64,000 nucleotides of DNA, taken from assembly GCA_963669155.1 (NCBI GenBank), contig OZ022576.1, positions 16,555,035 through 16,619,034 on the forward strand. The letters are read 5' to 3'. This DNA comes from Arbacia lixula (taxonomy: Eukaryota; Echinodermata; Echinoidea; Arbacioida; Arbaciidae). Each line of letters opens with the position of its first letter. Positions within the stretch are counted from its first letter, which is position 1. A model generated the notes under the pieces. It was given only the letters and a program-made list of their open reading frames with translations. It made no database searches and was not told where the DNA came from. The position numbers were made by a program, and so were the translations under genes. This document shows positions 18,666-64,000 of this stretch, piece after piece.

Positions 18666-18680
18666 AAGGGCAGAGTCAAG

Positions 18681-18868
18681 AGAGGTTTGGTATCACTATT
18701 TGTATGGAGAGAAGTTTTGGACATATTTTCCTTTTTTTTTTGTAACCCTGTTTCAGTTCTTTGAGGTTTTTGTTGGTTTAAGCATGGAGGTAGAACCTCC
18801 ATGGTTTAAGGGAAGTTTGGTATCACTAGTTTTATGGAGAGAAGTTTTTGACATATTTTTTACCTTAC
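18681..18868. repeat. 130-bp spaced direct repeat upstream of LINE ORFs
   Basis: The stretch GGTTTGGTATCACTATTTGTATGGAGAGAAGTTTTGGACATATTTT-like sequence at 18681-18728 recurs with a few differences at 18811-18859. This could be a tandem promoter-type repeat in the 5' UTR of the LINE, or an unrelated duplication. Confidence 0.6.
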
Positions 18869-23457: not shown

Positions 23458-23869
23458 AAAAAAAAAATATTAGGTATTTCATTCCATTATGTGCTTCAGT
23501 TTGTTTGGTGAATGACTTTTTTTTTCCTTTGTACACTTTTTGTAATACGAAATGAGGAAATTGTACACTTTGTTTGTAATTATTTACCTGTACCATGCAA
23601 TTGATTATGGATGAAATCCTGAATAAAAACATGTTTGGAAAAAAAAATATTAGTAAACTTTTTTTTTTTCAGGTATTTCATTCCATTATGTGCTTCAGTT
23701 TGTTTGGTAAATGATTTTTGTATATATTTTGTAACACAAAAATGAAGAAATTGTACATTTTGCTTGTAATTATCTACCTGGACTATGTATGTAATTATAT
23801 CATGTCATTGATTATGGATGAAATCCTGAATAAAAAAATGTTGAAAAAAAAAAAAAAAAAAAAAAAAAA
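23458..23869 (+). repeat. Tandemly duplicated LINE 3' tail plus poly(A)
   Basis: The unit starting GGTATTTCATTCCATTATGT occurs at 23473 and 23672 (period 199). Each copy ends GATTATGGATGAAATCCTGAATAAAA and a run of A. The copies differ at many positions (for example TACACTTTTTGTAATACG versus TATATTTTGTAACACA). The second copy ends in about 27 A at 23843-23869. A run AAAAAAATATTAG precedes each copy. Either the family carries a repeated 3' UTR or two insertions are joined. Confidence 0.85.
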
Positions 23870-33589: not shown

Positions 33590-34060
33590 GAATTTTGCAA
33601 CTTTTTGAGCTGATAATAATGATTTGGAGAAATTTGGAAGGTATTTTAAAATTATCAGATGAACCACTCTGTAAAGAAATAGGCCCTGCTACAAAATATA
33701 ACATAAAATTAATATAAAATTGTTTATCATACTCTCTTTCCTTCCTATTCTCATCTTTTTTTTGAGGTGATGATAATGAGTGGGAGAAATTCACAATGAC
33801 ATGAAAATTATTAGATAAATGAGTGGGTCATGTTGCAAAATGCACTCGCAAGAAAAAAAATAACTGATGATCGTACTCTTCTCTTGTATTCACATCTGTT
33901 TTTCGAGCTGATGAAAATTAGTGGGAGAAATTTACAAGCACATGAAATTTATCAGCAGAACCACTCTCTAGATAAATGGGCTGCATTGGAAAAAAACACA
34001 TCAATATTTCATTGATTATCAAACTCTTCTCTCATTATTATCACCCTCATTTGATTTATA
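33590..34060. repeat. Three-copy tandem repeat (about 140-157 bp) downstream of NAXE
   Basis: The motif GAGCTGATAATAATGATTTGGAGAAATT recurs at 33607, 33764 (GAGGTGATGATAATGAGTGG) and 33905 (GAGCTGATGAAAATTAGTGG), each followed by a stretch like ATGAAAATTATCAG, ACCACTCTGTA or AGATAAATG, and a C/T-rich CTCTTCTCTTCTATTCTCATC segment. Copies are well diverged. This lies in the probable NAXE 3' UTR or flank. Confidence 0.8.
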
Positions 34061-34148: not shown

Positions 34149-34351
34149 TCATTTTAGCTGAACTATGCAGTCCGTGCCGGGATAGTCTGGCAGCGAGAGT
34201 TCATATCGGCAGGCCATTTCTGGCGGGACGAAGCGGCCGCCCAGGTAGTGGTACTTTCCTTGGAAGTGTCTGGCACACTTCTTGGGTGCTGTCAGTGAGA
34301 TCAGCAGGTCTGGCTTCAGACCATCCTCATTGCCCTCCTCCACGTCCCAAC
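34149..34351 (-). CDS. NAXE: NAXE last exon (YjeF_N domain C-terminal part)
   Basis: The terminal coding exon of NAD(P)H-hydrate epimerase. The acceptor is CTGTGCTCAG (minus strand), the exon opens with GT completing a split Gly codon, then reads [41 protein letters not shown], ending [13 protein letters not shown] and TGA. The 203 bases keep phase with the exon at 35263-35521. The WDVEEG segment follows SIDVPSG and forms the conserved active-site/potassium-binding loop region; LISLTAPK and GGRFVPP are family signatures. The visible three exons give about 225 residues, which is the whole catalytic domain compared with the human enzyme (288 residues including a mitochondrial targeting sequence). 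Confidence 0.96.
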
Positions 34352-35262: not shown

Positions 35263-35521
35263 CTGAAGGGACATCAATGCTGCACAGCGGAATGCTGATG
35301 TTCTTCAAGTTCTCCAGGACCTCTCCAAAGGGTGCCCTCACCTCCCCCTTGAAGCTGAACCCAAACAGCGCATCAACGACAAAGTTGTAGGAAGAGTTGA
35401 TGAGAGAGGGCGACGGGAGGTAGGAGAGAAACGGGAGGTCCAGAGCAGCGCATTGCGTCATCAGATTGTTGAAGAGCTTCTTATCTGGACGTTTAGGGTA
35501 GAAGATGGTTGGTAGATAACC
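35263..35521 (-). CDS. NAXE: NAXE internal exon (YjeF_N domain middle part)
   Basis: An internal exon of NAD(P)HX epimerase, 259 bases, from acceptor CTTGTCCCCAG (minus strand, at 35522) to donor GTCAGT. It reads GYLPTIFYPKRPDKKLFNNL, then MTQCAALDLPFLSYLP, NFVVDALFGFSFKGEVRAPF, and ends SIDVPSG with Gly split across the intron. VVDALFGFSFKG and the SID(V/I)PSG loop are diagnostic of NAXE; the Asp of VVDA is in the catalytic site of the family. The enzyme interconverts R- and S-NAD(P)HX so that the S-specific dehydratase NAXD can repair it; it acts in mitochondria and cytosol. The intron just upstream holds decayed copies of the first 105 or so bases of this exon. Confidence 0.96.
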
Positions 35522-35569: not shown

Positions 35570-35885
35570 GGGAGGTAGGAGAGGGGAAGGGCATTATATC
35601 ATTTCAATGTTGAAGAGCTTCTTGTCTGGACGTTAAGGGTAGATGATGGCTGGTAGATAACCCTGGGGACAAGAAGAAGAAGGAATGAATGAATGATTAC
35701 CAGATGGAATGTAGAAGAGGAAAAGGACATCCAGAATGGTACATTGCATCATAAGATCGTTGAAGAAGTTAGATCGAAGAAGAATGAATGAATGAATGAA
35801 TGAGTAAATTACTGAATGAATGATCAGATGGGAAGAAGGACAGGAAAGGACATCCAGAGCCTTGAACGCACACTGTCGGGAGGAC
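35570..35885 (-). pseudogene. Tandem decayed partial copies of NAXE exon 35263-35521
   Basis: Copy 1 (about 35576-35682) repeats the acceptor and exon start exactly enough to read GYLPAIIYP and then an in-frame TAA where the real exon has Lys; its GGTTATC start is at about 35663 and the CCCCAG acceptor remains intact. Copy 2 (about 35703-35800) retains a frame like NDLMMQCTILDVLFLFY, and copy 3 (about 35820-35885) QCAFKALDVLSCP, both resembling NNLMTQCAALDLPFLSY of the real exon. Spacing is about 142, 148 and 120 bases. (GAAT)n has expanded at 35785-35805. These are intronic fragments, not functional exons. Confidence 0.8.
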
Positions 35886-36504
35886 AAAATGACTTACAAT
35901 ATAACAAACATGTGATGTTCAAATCAATTCTTTAGTCAAAGTTTCTTCAAAGTTACAAAAACGTCTCGTTGACATTTACGAACATCACTTGACTGTTTTA
36001 ATGATGTCTAGCAGTGCCAGTATTAAAAATGTTCAATATGACATCTCACTAAAGAAAGGAGATGGGAAAATTGAGATAGTGGCCTCCAAGAATAGCCATT
36101 ACCAATTTCCTCAGCTACCATGCTTTTCAGATAGATATATGTACATGCATTTAGGAAGAGTGGCCTGATGGTAAGTAAACATAAGGCCACAGAAACCAAT
36201 TACAGAACAATATGCCCTACGTTGAGAGAAAAGGAGAGAAGGGGGAGGGGGTTAGAGAGATAGAAAGAGGAAACTTAAAATATTTTGCATGGGGAGGGTA
36301 AAAAAAAAACTGAGAAAAAAACAATGATAGAAAATGAATTAAAAAGGATTTAAAATGGGGGATTGAGACAAAGAAAAAGAGTGAGTGATGGAGATAGAGG
36401 TAGAGAAAGAGAAAGAGAGATAGCGAGGGGAGTGGAAACATATGAGTAAAAAAGAAAGGGGGAGAAGCTAAGAAGAAGAGGAGAGGTGATAGAAAGAGGG
36501 GGAA

Positions 36505-40866: not shown

Positions 40867-40972
40867 TTATAAAAAAAAATTTCAGTCTAACAGCCAAAGA
40901 AAGTAAAAAGCAAGCAGGAGCCCTTAGGAGAGCTTCATGACTCCTGAGGAAATAAAACAACTCCATACTCAC

Positions 40973-41189
40973 AAAGAACTTAAGATGCCGAGCACAGACC
41001 AGGCCGTCGCCGCCATTGTTGCCTGGTCCACAGCAGACTAGGACCGTGGGCTCCCCTCCCAGGCTGCCTACAGGGTAGGCCTGGGCTATGGCCGTGGCAC
41101 AGCTTAGTCCAGCCAGCTCCATCAGCTGGTCCACACTGAAGGCATAGTCGTCAAACAGCTCCTTGTCTATGTTGATGGCCTCTTGCTGG
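40973..41189 (-). CDS. NAXE: NAXE internal exon (start of YjeF_N domain)
   Basis: A 217-base exon of NAD(P)HX epimerase, acceptor GTACTTACAG (minus strand) and donor GTGAGT. After one base completing a split codon it reads [20 protein letters not shown], then [38 protein letters not shown], ending [16 protein letters not shown] is the nucleotide/phosphate-binding glycine loop of YjeF_N proteins, and QLMELAG carries the family signature. It corresponds to human NAXE from just after its targeting region, so at least one upstream exon with the start codon and any mitochondrial presequence is missing from my annotation. An in-frame minus-strand ATG at 41251 is beyond the acceptor and is intronic. 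Partial copies of the exon lie immediately upstream. Confidence 0.97.
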
Positions 41190-41259
41190 CTGTAAGTACA
41201 AACACAGAGAACAATGAATGGGACTTTGGCCACAAACTTAAACTGCATCATACTTAAGA

Positions 41260-41725
41260 TATGAGTCCTAGCTTAGGACCACCTGTACCATGAGTTGCCT
41301 TATGCTGAAGGCATAGTCGTCAAACTGCTCCTTGTCTTTGTTGATGGCCTCTTGCTGGCTGTAAGTACAAACACAGAGAACAATGAATGAGACTTTGGCC
41401 ACAAACTTAAACTGCATCATACTTAAGATATGAGTCCTAGCTTAGGACCACCTGTACCATAAGTTTCCTTATGCTGAAGGCAGAGTTGTCAAACAGCTCC
41501 TTGTATATGTTGATGGCCTCTTGCTGGCTGTAAGTGTAACACACAAGAAACAAGAATGGATGGGACTATGACTACAAACTAAAACTTGACATATCCTTAA
41601 TAAGAGCCTTAATTCAGGACTTCCAGTTCCGTACACTGGTCTATGCTGACACTATAATCATTAAAGAGCTCCTATTCTTTATTGATGGCCTGTTGTTGGC
41701 TGTAAATATAAACATACAAAACATT
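41260..41725 (-). pseudogene. Three tandem decayed partial copies of NAXE exon 40973-41189
   Basis: The real exon start (41189) recurs at 41358, 41527 and 41699, spacing 169, 169 and 172 bases. Each copy includes the TTACAG acceptor, the first 45-55 exon bases and the upstream intron. Copy 1 reads QQEAINKDKEQFDDYAFS and copy 2 QQEAINIYKELFDNSAFS, both open for about 29 codons until a TAG that comes from intron sequence. Copy 3 reads QQQAINKE and then an in-frame TAG. Copies become more diverged with distance from the real exon. No copy has the glycine loop or the original donor. They could act as decoy acceptors; there is no evidence that they are used. Confidence 0.88.
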
Positions 41726-44560
41726 AGAAGGGACAAAAGCTACAAAATACTCAAACAACCCACACAGAAAACATGGTGATAAATATACCTCATATAAATT
41801 TCAAGACATGCTGATATTCATCTGTTGGTCGGAAAATGCCTTCCCTTTGCATCAAACTTTTTACAAAAAGGACATCAACCTGTATGCTTTATAGACAGCT
41901 GTCAAAGTATTGAATCTCCATAAAGAAACACAGCAAGTTTCAGTTTTACATGGTAAAATGTAATTATGATTAGTAAGTTGAAGTGAAAACTGAATGCCAC
42001 AAATTTGAGAAAATTCAACAAAATATACATAAGTCATTTTTGTTTTAAATCATACTGATTATGATTCAATGCTAGTGATTATGGATCTTTCAGTTCAAAT
42101 AAATTCATTTTATATGTTTGCATTGCCCTTTAATGGCTATTAGCTTGGAGACATATGTTGTACCCAAATGCACATACCTCCAACAGGATGTGAATTACAA
42201 ATATATATGTTTCTTTTACAAGGTTGAACATGTATATCCTACTCTAATGCGGGTTATGACCAGCCATGGAGCGTGTCATGTGTGCTGGTTATTCAGGAAT
42301 GTATGATAAACTAAATAACAATCTCATAACAAAACAACATCTTACACAAAGAAGTTAAAACATACTCAAATTATCAAAGAACTTATCACTGTGCAAAGAA
42401 CAAACATCACTCATCCCTGCAAAATAAGAATAAATCATTTTTTGCATATATCAAATGAGTCAAATCTATCTATTTTTACTTTCACTGGGTTACAAATTTG
42501 TTTATCAAAATGACAGCTATTTACCAGCTCTGTGCAAACAAACAAAGCTATTTCCTTCAAACATCACATATCACTGCGTAAACAGAAGACCCTTAATGCA
42601 TTCCAGTTGAGTCCACTTATTTTCTACTTTTACTGGGTTACCAATATGTTCATCAAAATGGCGGCTATTTACCAGCTCTGTGCAAACAAACAAAGCTATT
42701 TTCTTTCCTCCTTCCCATCACCCCCATCCAGGAGTCATCACGTTCCCCGCTAGGAGCACTCAGCCCCAACATTCCCCCCACTTCAAGCTCCCACACGATC
42801 CTCGCACCTCCCCCCTGGGACGACGGACTCTGAATTGTGGAATGCCCACAGGCATATATACTACAGTCCCATGAATAATGAATGGTGTCACCATCATCCG
42901 CCTCCATCTACACGTTGGCAAGCACCATGCCGTATCAGTTTATGCAATAACTCTACATCGGGAACATACTGCAGAAGTATTATCTCTCAATCAGGTTTTC
43001 GATTTGATATCTTTCTCATTTTCTCCCCTCATCTTCCATCCTTAAAGGCAAGGTGAAGTCGTGGTTAAGACTACATGATCTGTAAGGATGGAGTGCTATT
43101 CTGCCAACTTCATTTATCCTATTCTTGTTTGATTTCAGGATACCAAGAAGGAGTCATCTCAAAATGATATAATCTTTGAAATAAAACAAAGTTTGTCCCC
43201 CGTGATGACAGCATAATGGTTCTGCTGTGATTACAACCTGTAATCAATATCCCTCCTACCTCTTCCCTTTAACCGCTTGACTTTCAGGAACACCTAATTC
43301 CAATGACCTTAATACAGAGACTATGCAATTCCATAAGGTATAGAAAAGGGAGTACAATACAACAACACTTCTAGGCCTTCATGTGGTAACTAATTGTATG
43401 ATATTAACACAAAAAAATCATATTACTAACATTACTCTTCCTTGATTTCTTGAATGACGTCAAGTTACCCTGCTTCAGATCTATGCTACTCCCAATCTAG
43501 AATGACTTAATGATCATCTTCATTATGTATGATTTTCTTGAAGCAAGCATGCAGGCCATTGACCTGTTATATGAGCCTCAACTTCACCTGTAAGTGCCAG
43601 TTCCAGGTGAGAGTTCTCCATTTCATATCTTGTCATTCTCTTATGCGGGTACAGAAGCATCAGACAGGAATAGGGGAGGCAGAGGGGTGGGGAGGGGGAA
43701 AGCTCTCACAAATCACCCAGCAGTTTTCCCTCCTCCACAGGATATTTAGGACAATGTTAACACGTTTGAAGTGCATATTAGTCAACTTGATGAATTCTCC
43801 CTCATTACTGATATAATATTAATTGTGTAATCATCGTAAACTCAGCTGTTATCAGGGTCATTATGTATTAGAGTACAGGTTATGCTCTTATCAACCATCA
43901 AAGAGTACATATAGGTGAAAGACTGATATGAATGAGGCACATGGACGGGTGAGGTATTTGAAGGAGATACGTTGATAAAGTATAAATGATGATGATCTTA
44001 AGTCACAAGAAAGAAAGATCATGGGTATAGAAAAGAGGAAAAAGGGATACATGGAGAAGGATATATATAGATAGACATACAAAAGATCTCACATATTGAT
44101 CATGATCACACAATTCACATGATATAGGAATTGTATAAACATCCGTCATTAGATAACAATTTGATACTGACAATTTCAAATATAATTAATGAAATACTGC
44201 CCACTAAAAGAAGTTGTATGGGATTACATCAGATTCTCATTCTCTTTCTCTTCCTGGACACTTAAATAAACTAGAGAATATTGCTTTTTATTAACAACAT
44301 CATTAATCTGACACTGGAAATATTTACATTTAGACAACCATACAGTCTTGATATGTTACAAAAGAAGCCTTTCAAGCTGTAAACTGGAATATATGCTTTC
44401 CCCCTCAACTGAAGCTATTTGCTGAAATATCATTTTCAAATTACATATTATTAATCCTTATTATGCCAGCCACAATGGTGCTCTATAGGAATTGTGTGTA
44501 TCAAGTAGAGCCATAATGTGACTGTGGTACATAGAGCCTGATAAATTAAAATTCATACAG
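41726..44560. other. Probable NAXE first intron (proximal part)
   Basis: No exon recognised. It includes a two-copy 142-base repeat at 42475-42702 and moderately GC-rich sequence at 42700-42920 with no supported frame. Confidence 0.5.
42475..42702. repeat. Direct repeat with 142-bp spacing
   Basis: TTTACTTTCACTGGGTTACA...ATTTACCAGCTCTGTGCAAA at 42475-42560 and TTTACTTTTACTGGGTTACC...ATTTACCAGCTCTGTGCAAA at 42617-42702, with few differences. A third, more degraded copy may lie at 42380-42415. Confidence 0.8.
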
Positions 44561-44819: not shown

Positions 44820-45515
44820 TGACCAACACGGACACATGGTGCACAGCAAGAAGGATATGTGGTGAACGGGCAGGGGGAGCGGGTAGGAGTGTGGTTAGGC
44901 CCTTTGCAGGGATTCTAATTAAATGTTGCCCATGATGTATATATGCTGCAAGCTGCTTTAGGCCAATGCTCACCTTTAAAGAAAGACCACATTTTTTTTG
45001 CTGTTCCAAACAATATCAAGAGAGGGCATAGAATAAAGTGCAGAGGAAGAGGGATGTGTAGCAAACGGGCAGGGCTACTGGGAAGGAGCGTGGTCAGGAC
45101 CTTCGCAGGGAATCTAATTAAATGTTGCCCATGATGCGTATACAGCGAAAGCTGCTTTAGGCTAACAACCACCTTTAAAGAAAGACCACATTTTGTTGTT
45201 GCATCAAACAATATAAAGACTGACACTTGGTGTACAGTGAGAGGGATGAGTGGTGAATGGGCAAGGGTAGTGGGTAGGAGTGTGGTTAGGACCTCTGTAT
45301 GTCTTGGCAAGGAAGCTAATCAAATGTTACACATGATGCACAGGTAAATTATATACAGTGAAAGCAGCATCAACCCTCTATGCGCCCGAGAAAATACTAG
45401 TCTGTGGGGCTTGTGTGTATTACCTGTGCAAAAATGCATCATGGATGCATACAAGGTGAAAAAAAAACACCATTTAAGTAAGACCACATATGTAATTATA
45501 CCAAACAATAAAGAG
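44820..45515. repeat. Three-copy tandem repeat (199 and about 298 bp spacing)
   Basis: Anchor motifs TTTAAAGAAAGACCACAT at 44976 and 45175 and TTTAAGTAAGACCACAT at 45473, TCTAATTAAATGTTGCCCATGATG, and GGGCAGGG...GGGTAGGAGTGTGGTTAGG recur in order. The third copy carries about 100 extra bases. Minus-strand frames are open over two copies with similar translations, which reflects the duplication and is not proof of coding. Confidence 0.88.
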
Positions 45516-63600: not shown

Positions 63601-63714
63601 TGCATACTTGCAGAAGAGCCAATGGACTTGATGCATGCCTCCAAATATAAAACAGTTATTCAAGCTGTGAAAAGTGATGCAAAACCCTGAGCAGTAAAAG
63701 AGAAATATTTCCCA
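60660..63714. other. Non-coding region to the end repeat
   Basis: AT-rich unique DNA. A short imperfect hairpin is at 61346-61427, and (GAT)n at 63346-63378 and (ATC)n at 63505-63562 are inverted relative to each other. No exon is supported. Confidence 0.5.
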
Positions 63715-63715
63715 T

Positions 63716-64000
63716 TGTATCGTGTGCTGAAAGGTAATTTAAGCTGGGAATGAAAGAGATTTAAAAATTTTCCCTAGCATCCTATGTGAAAGGGTTCTTT
63801 AAGCTGGGATGAAATAAGATGTTAACTTTCTCCTTGCATCCTATGTGAAAGGGTTCCTTAAGCTGGGATCAAATAAGATGTTAACTTTCTCCTAGCATCC
63901 TATATGAAAGGGTAATTTAAGCTGTGAATGAAAGAGATGTAAAGCTTTCCACTCGCATCCTATGTGAAAGGGTTATTTGAGCTGGGGTCAAATGAGATGT
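63716..64000. repeat. About 60-bp minisatellite, running off the window
   Basis: Units beginning CCTATGTGAAAGGGTT occur at 63780, 63839, 63899 and 63959 (spacing 59-60), with a more diverged first unit at about 63716 (TGTGCTGAAAGGTAATTTAA). Each contains TTTAAGCTGGGAT and AGATGTTAACTTTCTCC-like blocks. The array is cut by the window end, so copy number is unknown. Confidence 0.92.

Follow-up and report, generated by a model that had tools for sequence, protein, structure and literature searches.

What is the origin of the partial exons, each with its own splice acceptor, that stand upstream of an exon of NAXE in Arbacia lixula, and do they serve the gene? NAXE, a metabolic-repair gene of animals, encodes NAD(P)HX epimerase and is also known as AIBP. 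We examined the stretch of 64,000 nucleotides that contains it (the window) and compared the locus with other genes and with background sequence of the same assembly. We conclude, with a probability of roughly 85%, that the array is a by-product of local tandem duplication, which is common in this genome. Here it would have straddled a splice junction and been tolerated.

NAXE exons in the window

The gene was recognized by YjeF_N homology across its exons (Table 1). Exons 2 and 3 both match Pfam YjeF_N and the structure of mouse AIBP/NAXE (2dg2), which is the top solved-structure match of exon 2 (E 3e-28) and matches exon 3 with E 4e-28. The open reading frame of exon 4 had no Pfam match, and this exon was recognized by eye. 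Exon 1 was not located. Four more minus-strand open reading frames upstream of NAXE matched no Pfam family.

Table 1. Positions in the window of NAXE exons, units of the exon 2 array, and partial copies of exon 3
Feature	Positions	Strand	First exon base	Identity to unit 1	Description
NAXE exon 2	40973..41189	-			217 nt, ends HLKFF; acceptor TTACAG, donor TTT/GTGAGT
NAXE exon 3	35263..35521	-			GYLPTIFYPKRPDKKLF...IDVPSG; acceptor CCCCAG, donor TTCAG/GTCAGT
NAXE exon 4	34149..34351	-			ends QLK stop
Unit 1	41101..41269	-	41189		intron 41269-41190 plus first 89 nt of real exon 2
Unit 2	41270..41438	-	41358	89.3%	partial copy, mosaic
Unit 3	41439..41610	-	41527	75.6%	partial copy
Unit 4	41611..41785	-	41699	63.3%	most diverged copy
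Exon 3 upstream partial copy	35601..35742	-			acceptor and 5' part; lag 141; decayed
Older exon 3 copy or copies	35743..35900	-			more decayed; behind nearer copy

A tandem array precedes NAXE exon 2

The exon 2 array has four units, the real one and three partial copies upstream of it, with start-to-start distances of 169, 169, and 172 bases. TTACAG precedes the first exon base in all four. The initial annotation had reported three extra copies of the acceptor and exon start at just this spacing, and its coordinates were right. The 169-base periodicity on which it had staked the array is also present. Tandem Repeats Finder gave a period of 169 over 41136-41586, and autocorrelation at lag 169 was 0.456, the peak for 40900-42000. 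The highest peak in any of 200 dinucleotide shuffles (lags 20-499) was 0.322. The units are therefore arranged head to tail at a regular spacing that is beyond chance.

The repeated part had been given as 45 to 55 coding bases. The unit is longer, with ~80 intron bases, the acceptor, and ~89 exon bases, although the similarity of unit 4 is weak (57-59%) except over the first 54 exon bases. With distance, the units become less identical to the real one (Table 1), and the claim that divergence rises with distance holds overall. However, unit 2 has two parts with different affinities (see below).

Whole-exon tandem duplication seems to occur in this genome (L067 and L047, see below), and the copies might be relics of old alternative exons that were formerly complete and used and have since been truncated. 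However, the exon similarity of units 2 and 3 gives way to intron-like sequence at the same point, ~89 bases in, and the remainder of exon 2 and its donor are missing from all three copies. The shared truncation point better fits a unit breakpoint inside the exon, and we consider an origin from complete exons extremely improbable.

Two other identities were rejected. A 459-base NAXE query matched only this locus in the assembly (607 Mb in 590 contigs; the tool's count of loci is a minimum), and therefore the array is not a dispersed satellite. It was also rejected as an Rfam RNA, since a scan of the window at the gathering threshold had 0 matches.

Unit 2 is a mosaic of its neighbors

The intron part and first 54 exon bases of unit 2 are like unit 1, and its last 35 exon bases are like unit 3. 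There were 40 informative sites, defined as ungapped sites where unit 2 is identical to either unit 1 or unit 3 but not to both. It has 26 in common with unit 1 and 14 in common with unit 3. The first 25 are all unit 1 sites, and the later ones are the 14 unit 3 sites plus one more from unit 1. A single switch fits 39/40 sites, which was matched in 0 of 20,000 permutations (p 5e-5). Therefore, unit 2 combines a part of unit 1 with a part of unit 3. This single switch of affinity within a unit places the array with those shaped by unequal crossing-over. Unequal crossing-over between copies would be expected to give a sequence like that of unit 2, and gene conversion would leave a similar one. 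Because this copy resembles a crossover product, it is plausible that copy number at the NAXE array is mutable.

Units 1 and 2 differ at only 3/134 sites in their shared part (1/80 in the intron and 2/54 in the exon), and therefore the unit 2 event was recent relative to the others. Two alleles might be as close as this, and the array might then be an assembly artefact, with haplotypes or read errors stacked as a false tandem array. However, this is very unlikely because divergence is graded down to 63% and the structure is mosaic. Exon 3 and other genes have arrays of their own, which also argues against it.

Units 1 and 3 agree at 94% of the first 54 exon bases, 72% of the intron part, and 54% of the next 35 exon bases. 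In our reading, slow evolution of the real exon gives rise to part of this pattern and a short tract of conversion or crossover to the rest, since constraint on that exon may not be a full explanation by itself. The pattern counts against the by-product reading, and taken alone it is also compatible with selection for a decoy acceptor.

Splice sites and coding potential of the exon 2 copies

The two nearest copies had been described as keeping TTACAG and an open frame with amino acid changes. The acceptor and the amino acid changes are there, but translation from the acceptors of units 2 and 3 reaches a stop after 30 codons. The farthest copy was said to have a stop, and it does, after 9 codons. 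Compared with the real exon over its first 17 full codons, there are 0 silent and 2 changed codons in copy 2, 0 and 3 in copy 3, and 4 and 6 plus 1 stop in copy 4. At these few sites there is no sign of protein constraint. None of the copies is a complete exon with an acceptor, a donor, and an open frame, as mutually exclusive exons would be. With no complete copies and early stops, functional alternative exons were rejected.

Could the copies instead serve as poison exons or decoy acceptors? Splicing to an upstream acceptor would lead to an early stop, which might lower or tune NAXE output. TTACAG is in all three copies, and the 18 bases before it contain 12, 12, and 13 pyrimidines, whereas the real site has 13. 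Units 1 and 3 also resemble each other most over the first 54 exon bases, and every copy runs into a stop when read on. However, units 2 and 3 have no strong donor. The best within them is CAG/GTGGTC, which scores 0.36 compared with 1.18 for the real donor on a crude donor matrix. (The same crude matrix gives 1.49 for a donor-like site upstream of unit 4, at 41789, again compared with 1.18 for the real donor.) Furthermore, the codon changes look unconstrained, and similar debris occurs at other sites at about the background rate. We regard the decoy explanation as improbable, and as judged from these splice signals and codons, splicing regulation by decoy acceptors at NAXE is unsupported.

Partial copies at exon 3 and in other genes

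Exon 3 also has partial copies upstream. The nearer one is 84% identical to exon 3 over 128 aligned columns and keeps a CCCCAG acceptor before 35662. The older copy or copies behind it have no recognizable CCCCAG acceptor within the aligned part. Exon 4 has no overlapping partial copy at E 1e-6. Therefore, arrays are found at two of the three NAXE exons, for which the background rate gives p ~0.007 in a test that was post hoc and used exons of one gene. This is unusual and is a point against plain background duplication. (A third YjeF_N match in the genome, L004, has no local copy of the matched stretch and was left out of the exon count.)

Arrays of the same kind are present in other genes. 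The more striking case is an intron of a kinesin gene, L046 (G000:C21:15808500-15811900; L046:567-2015), most of which is made up of partial copies of the exons on either side. Six acceptor-side copies with lags of 105-111 stand before exon B, and the complete exon comes last. They are 84.5-94.5% identical to the real exon, with no steady fall with distance. Two donor-side copies (lag ~177) follow exon A, the second interrupted by an insertion. A donor-side partial copy was also found at a kinase exon that we take to be CDK10-like (L027; C16:6069537-6071230; L027:540-785), with a lag of 140, 80% identity, and the donor AAG/GTATGT kept. At another kinesin exon (L048), a decayed relic remains on the acceptor side.

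These cases could be taken further. Introns might grow by repeated tandem duplication anchored at junctions, leaving trains of decoy splice sites from both flanking exons, of which the L046 intron would be an example, and some genes, including NAXE, might use the trains to tune splicing. We think this unlikely.

Whole exons appear to be doubled at two loci. At L047 (C21:15710900-15712500), an entire kinesin P-loop exon is present twice with a lag of ~398, inside G-rich repeats, and the locus is partly N. L067 (C10:4472250-4473050), which is presumably katanin-like, has two complete tandem AAA exons, each with an acceptor and a donor. They are similar as protein and diverged as DNA, with no blastn pair at E 1e-3. 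Their sequences make them candidate mutually exclusive exons.

Frequency of arrays at exons and in background sequence

To set a background, twenty 10-kb stretches were taken at regular steps from a single contig, C1. These 200 kb contain 23 tandem arrays spanning 14.0 kb, and 13/20 stretches have at least one. The smallest lags run from 71 to 307, and a nucleosome-length period was therefore dropped.

The exon sample consisted of 38 exons (20 kinase and 18 kinesin) of genes picked by Pfam match. The kinase exons were short, stop-free, and hand-picked from 132 matches, and the kinesin exons were stop-free and taken from 126 matches in roughly list order. Partial copies outside the exon were found for 2/38 exons and for 15/304 random pseudo-exons at E 1e-6 (Fisher p 1.0), where the pseudo-exons all came from the 20 C1 stretches and their draws are not independent. 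At E 1e-3 the pseudo-exon background is 19/304. Array enrichment at exons was rejected on the first comparison. Duplication affects exon borders at about the same rate as other sequence. The small exon sample gives this a wide error, and 2/38 is compatible with a several-fold enrichment. L046 and L047 had been left out since their repeats were already visible in the match list. When they are added (L046 as a partial copy and L047 as a whole-exon copy), a local copy is found at 4/40 loci. Copies were counted up to a lag of 600, which left out an exact match of 20 bases in L032, with a lag of 767.

The window has six further tandem arrays, with lags of ~60 to 200, at 44825-45339, 23472-23852, 42471-42705, 33602-33955, 18678-18859, and 63703-64000. 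They have no obvious tie to exons. Downstream of NAXE, the one at 33602-33955 starts ~190 bases past the stop codon.

Discussion

How might the NAXE array have formed? A stretch of ~170 bases across the junction of intron 1 and exon 2 would have been duplicated, and later unequal crossing-over would have added units, with at least one relatively recent event giving the mosaic unit 2. When the duplicated segment contains the acceptor, the complete exon should stay downstream of the copies; when it contains the donor, the complete exon should stay upstream. Splicing would join the one complete exon with a donor, which is the copy nearest to the rest of the gene, and selection would keep that unit. 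The extra copies would stay in the intron and decay, probably neutrally, while crossing-over alters their number. The duplication would be tolerated because splicing joins the one complete exon. Exon definition would protect splicing by letting the spliceosome ignore the decoys.

The NAXE array shares features with several known systems. Minisatellites and short satellite arrays evolve by unequal crossing-over. Like them, NAXE has tandem units, of ~170 bases, one of which is mosaic. However, the NAXE unit is local, with one locus found, and its end unit lies in a functional exon that would be held by selection. Tandem exon duplication gives rise to alternative (mutually exclusive) exons, and there, as at NAXE, tandem duplication places extra exon sequence in a neighboring intron. 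The NAXE copies differ in being partial, in lacking the 3' part and donor, and in meeting stops on read-through.

Among described processes, the nearest is intron gain by tandem genomic duplication. As outlined in PMC3443670, duplication of a purely exonic segment that contains AGGT creates a new intron. In that outline, as at NAXE, a local duplication touches coding sequence, splicing removes the extra, and the protein is unchanged. However, the NAXE segment crosses an existing junction, and the old intron grows rather than a new one arising. The array adjoins an existing acceptor, and there is no new intron created within an exon by a duplicated AGGT. A word match of the open-licence literature, which is weak evidence of absence, found no partial-exon arrays at splice junctions and no report of NAXE exon duplication.

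The NAXE array is a clear example of how introns can lengthen and gain spare splice sites by local duplication, and it illustrates how genes may tolerate duplication of a junction. Together with the kinesin arrays, it offers natural test cases of how a cell chooses the true exon when up to seven acceptors are similar. It is also a warning to annotators, who may be led to false exons by partial copies that have intact acceptors.

One observation concerns a different gene. The mitochondrial COX1 (L066, G000:C590) has two AAA codons that are read as Asn in the echinoderm code and as Lys in the invertebrate code, and at these it agrees better with the echinoderm code. We take Asn to be nearly universal among animals at both positions.
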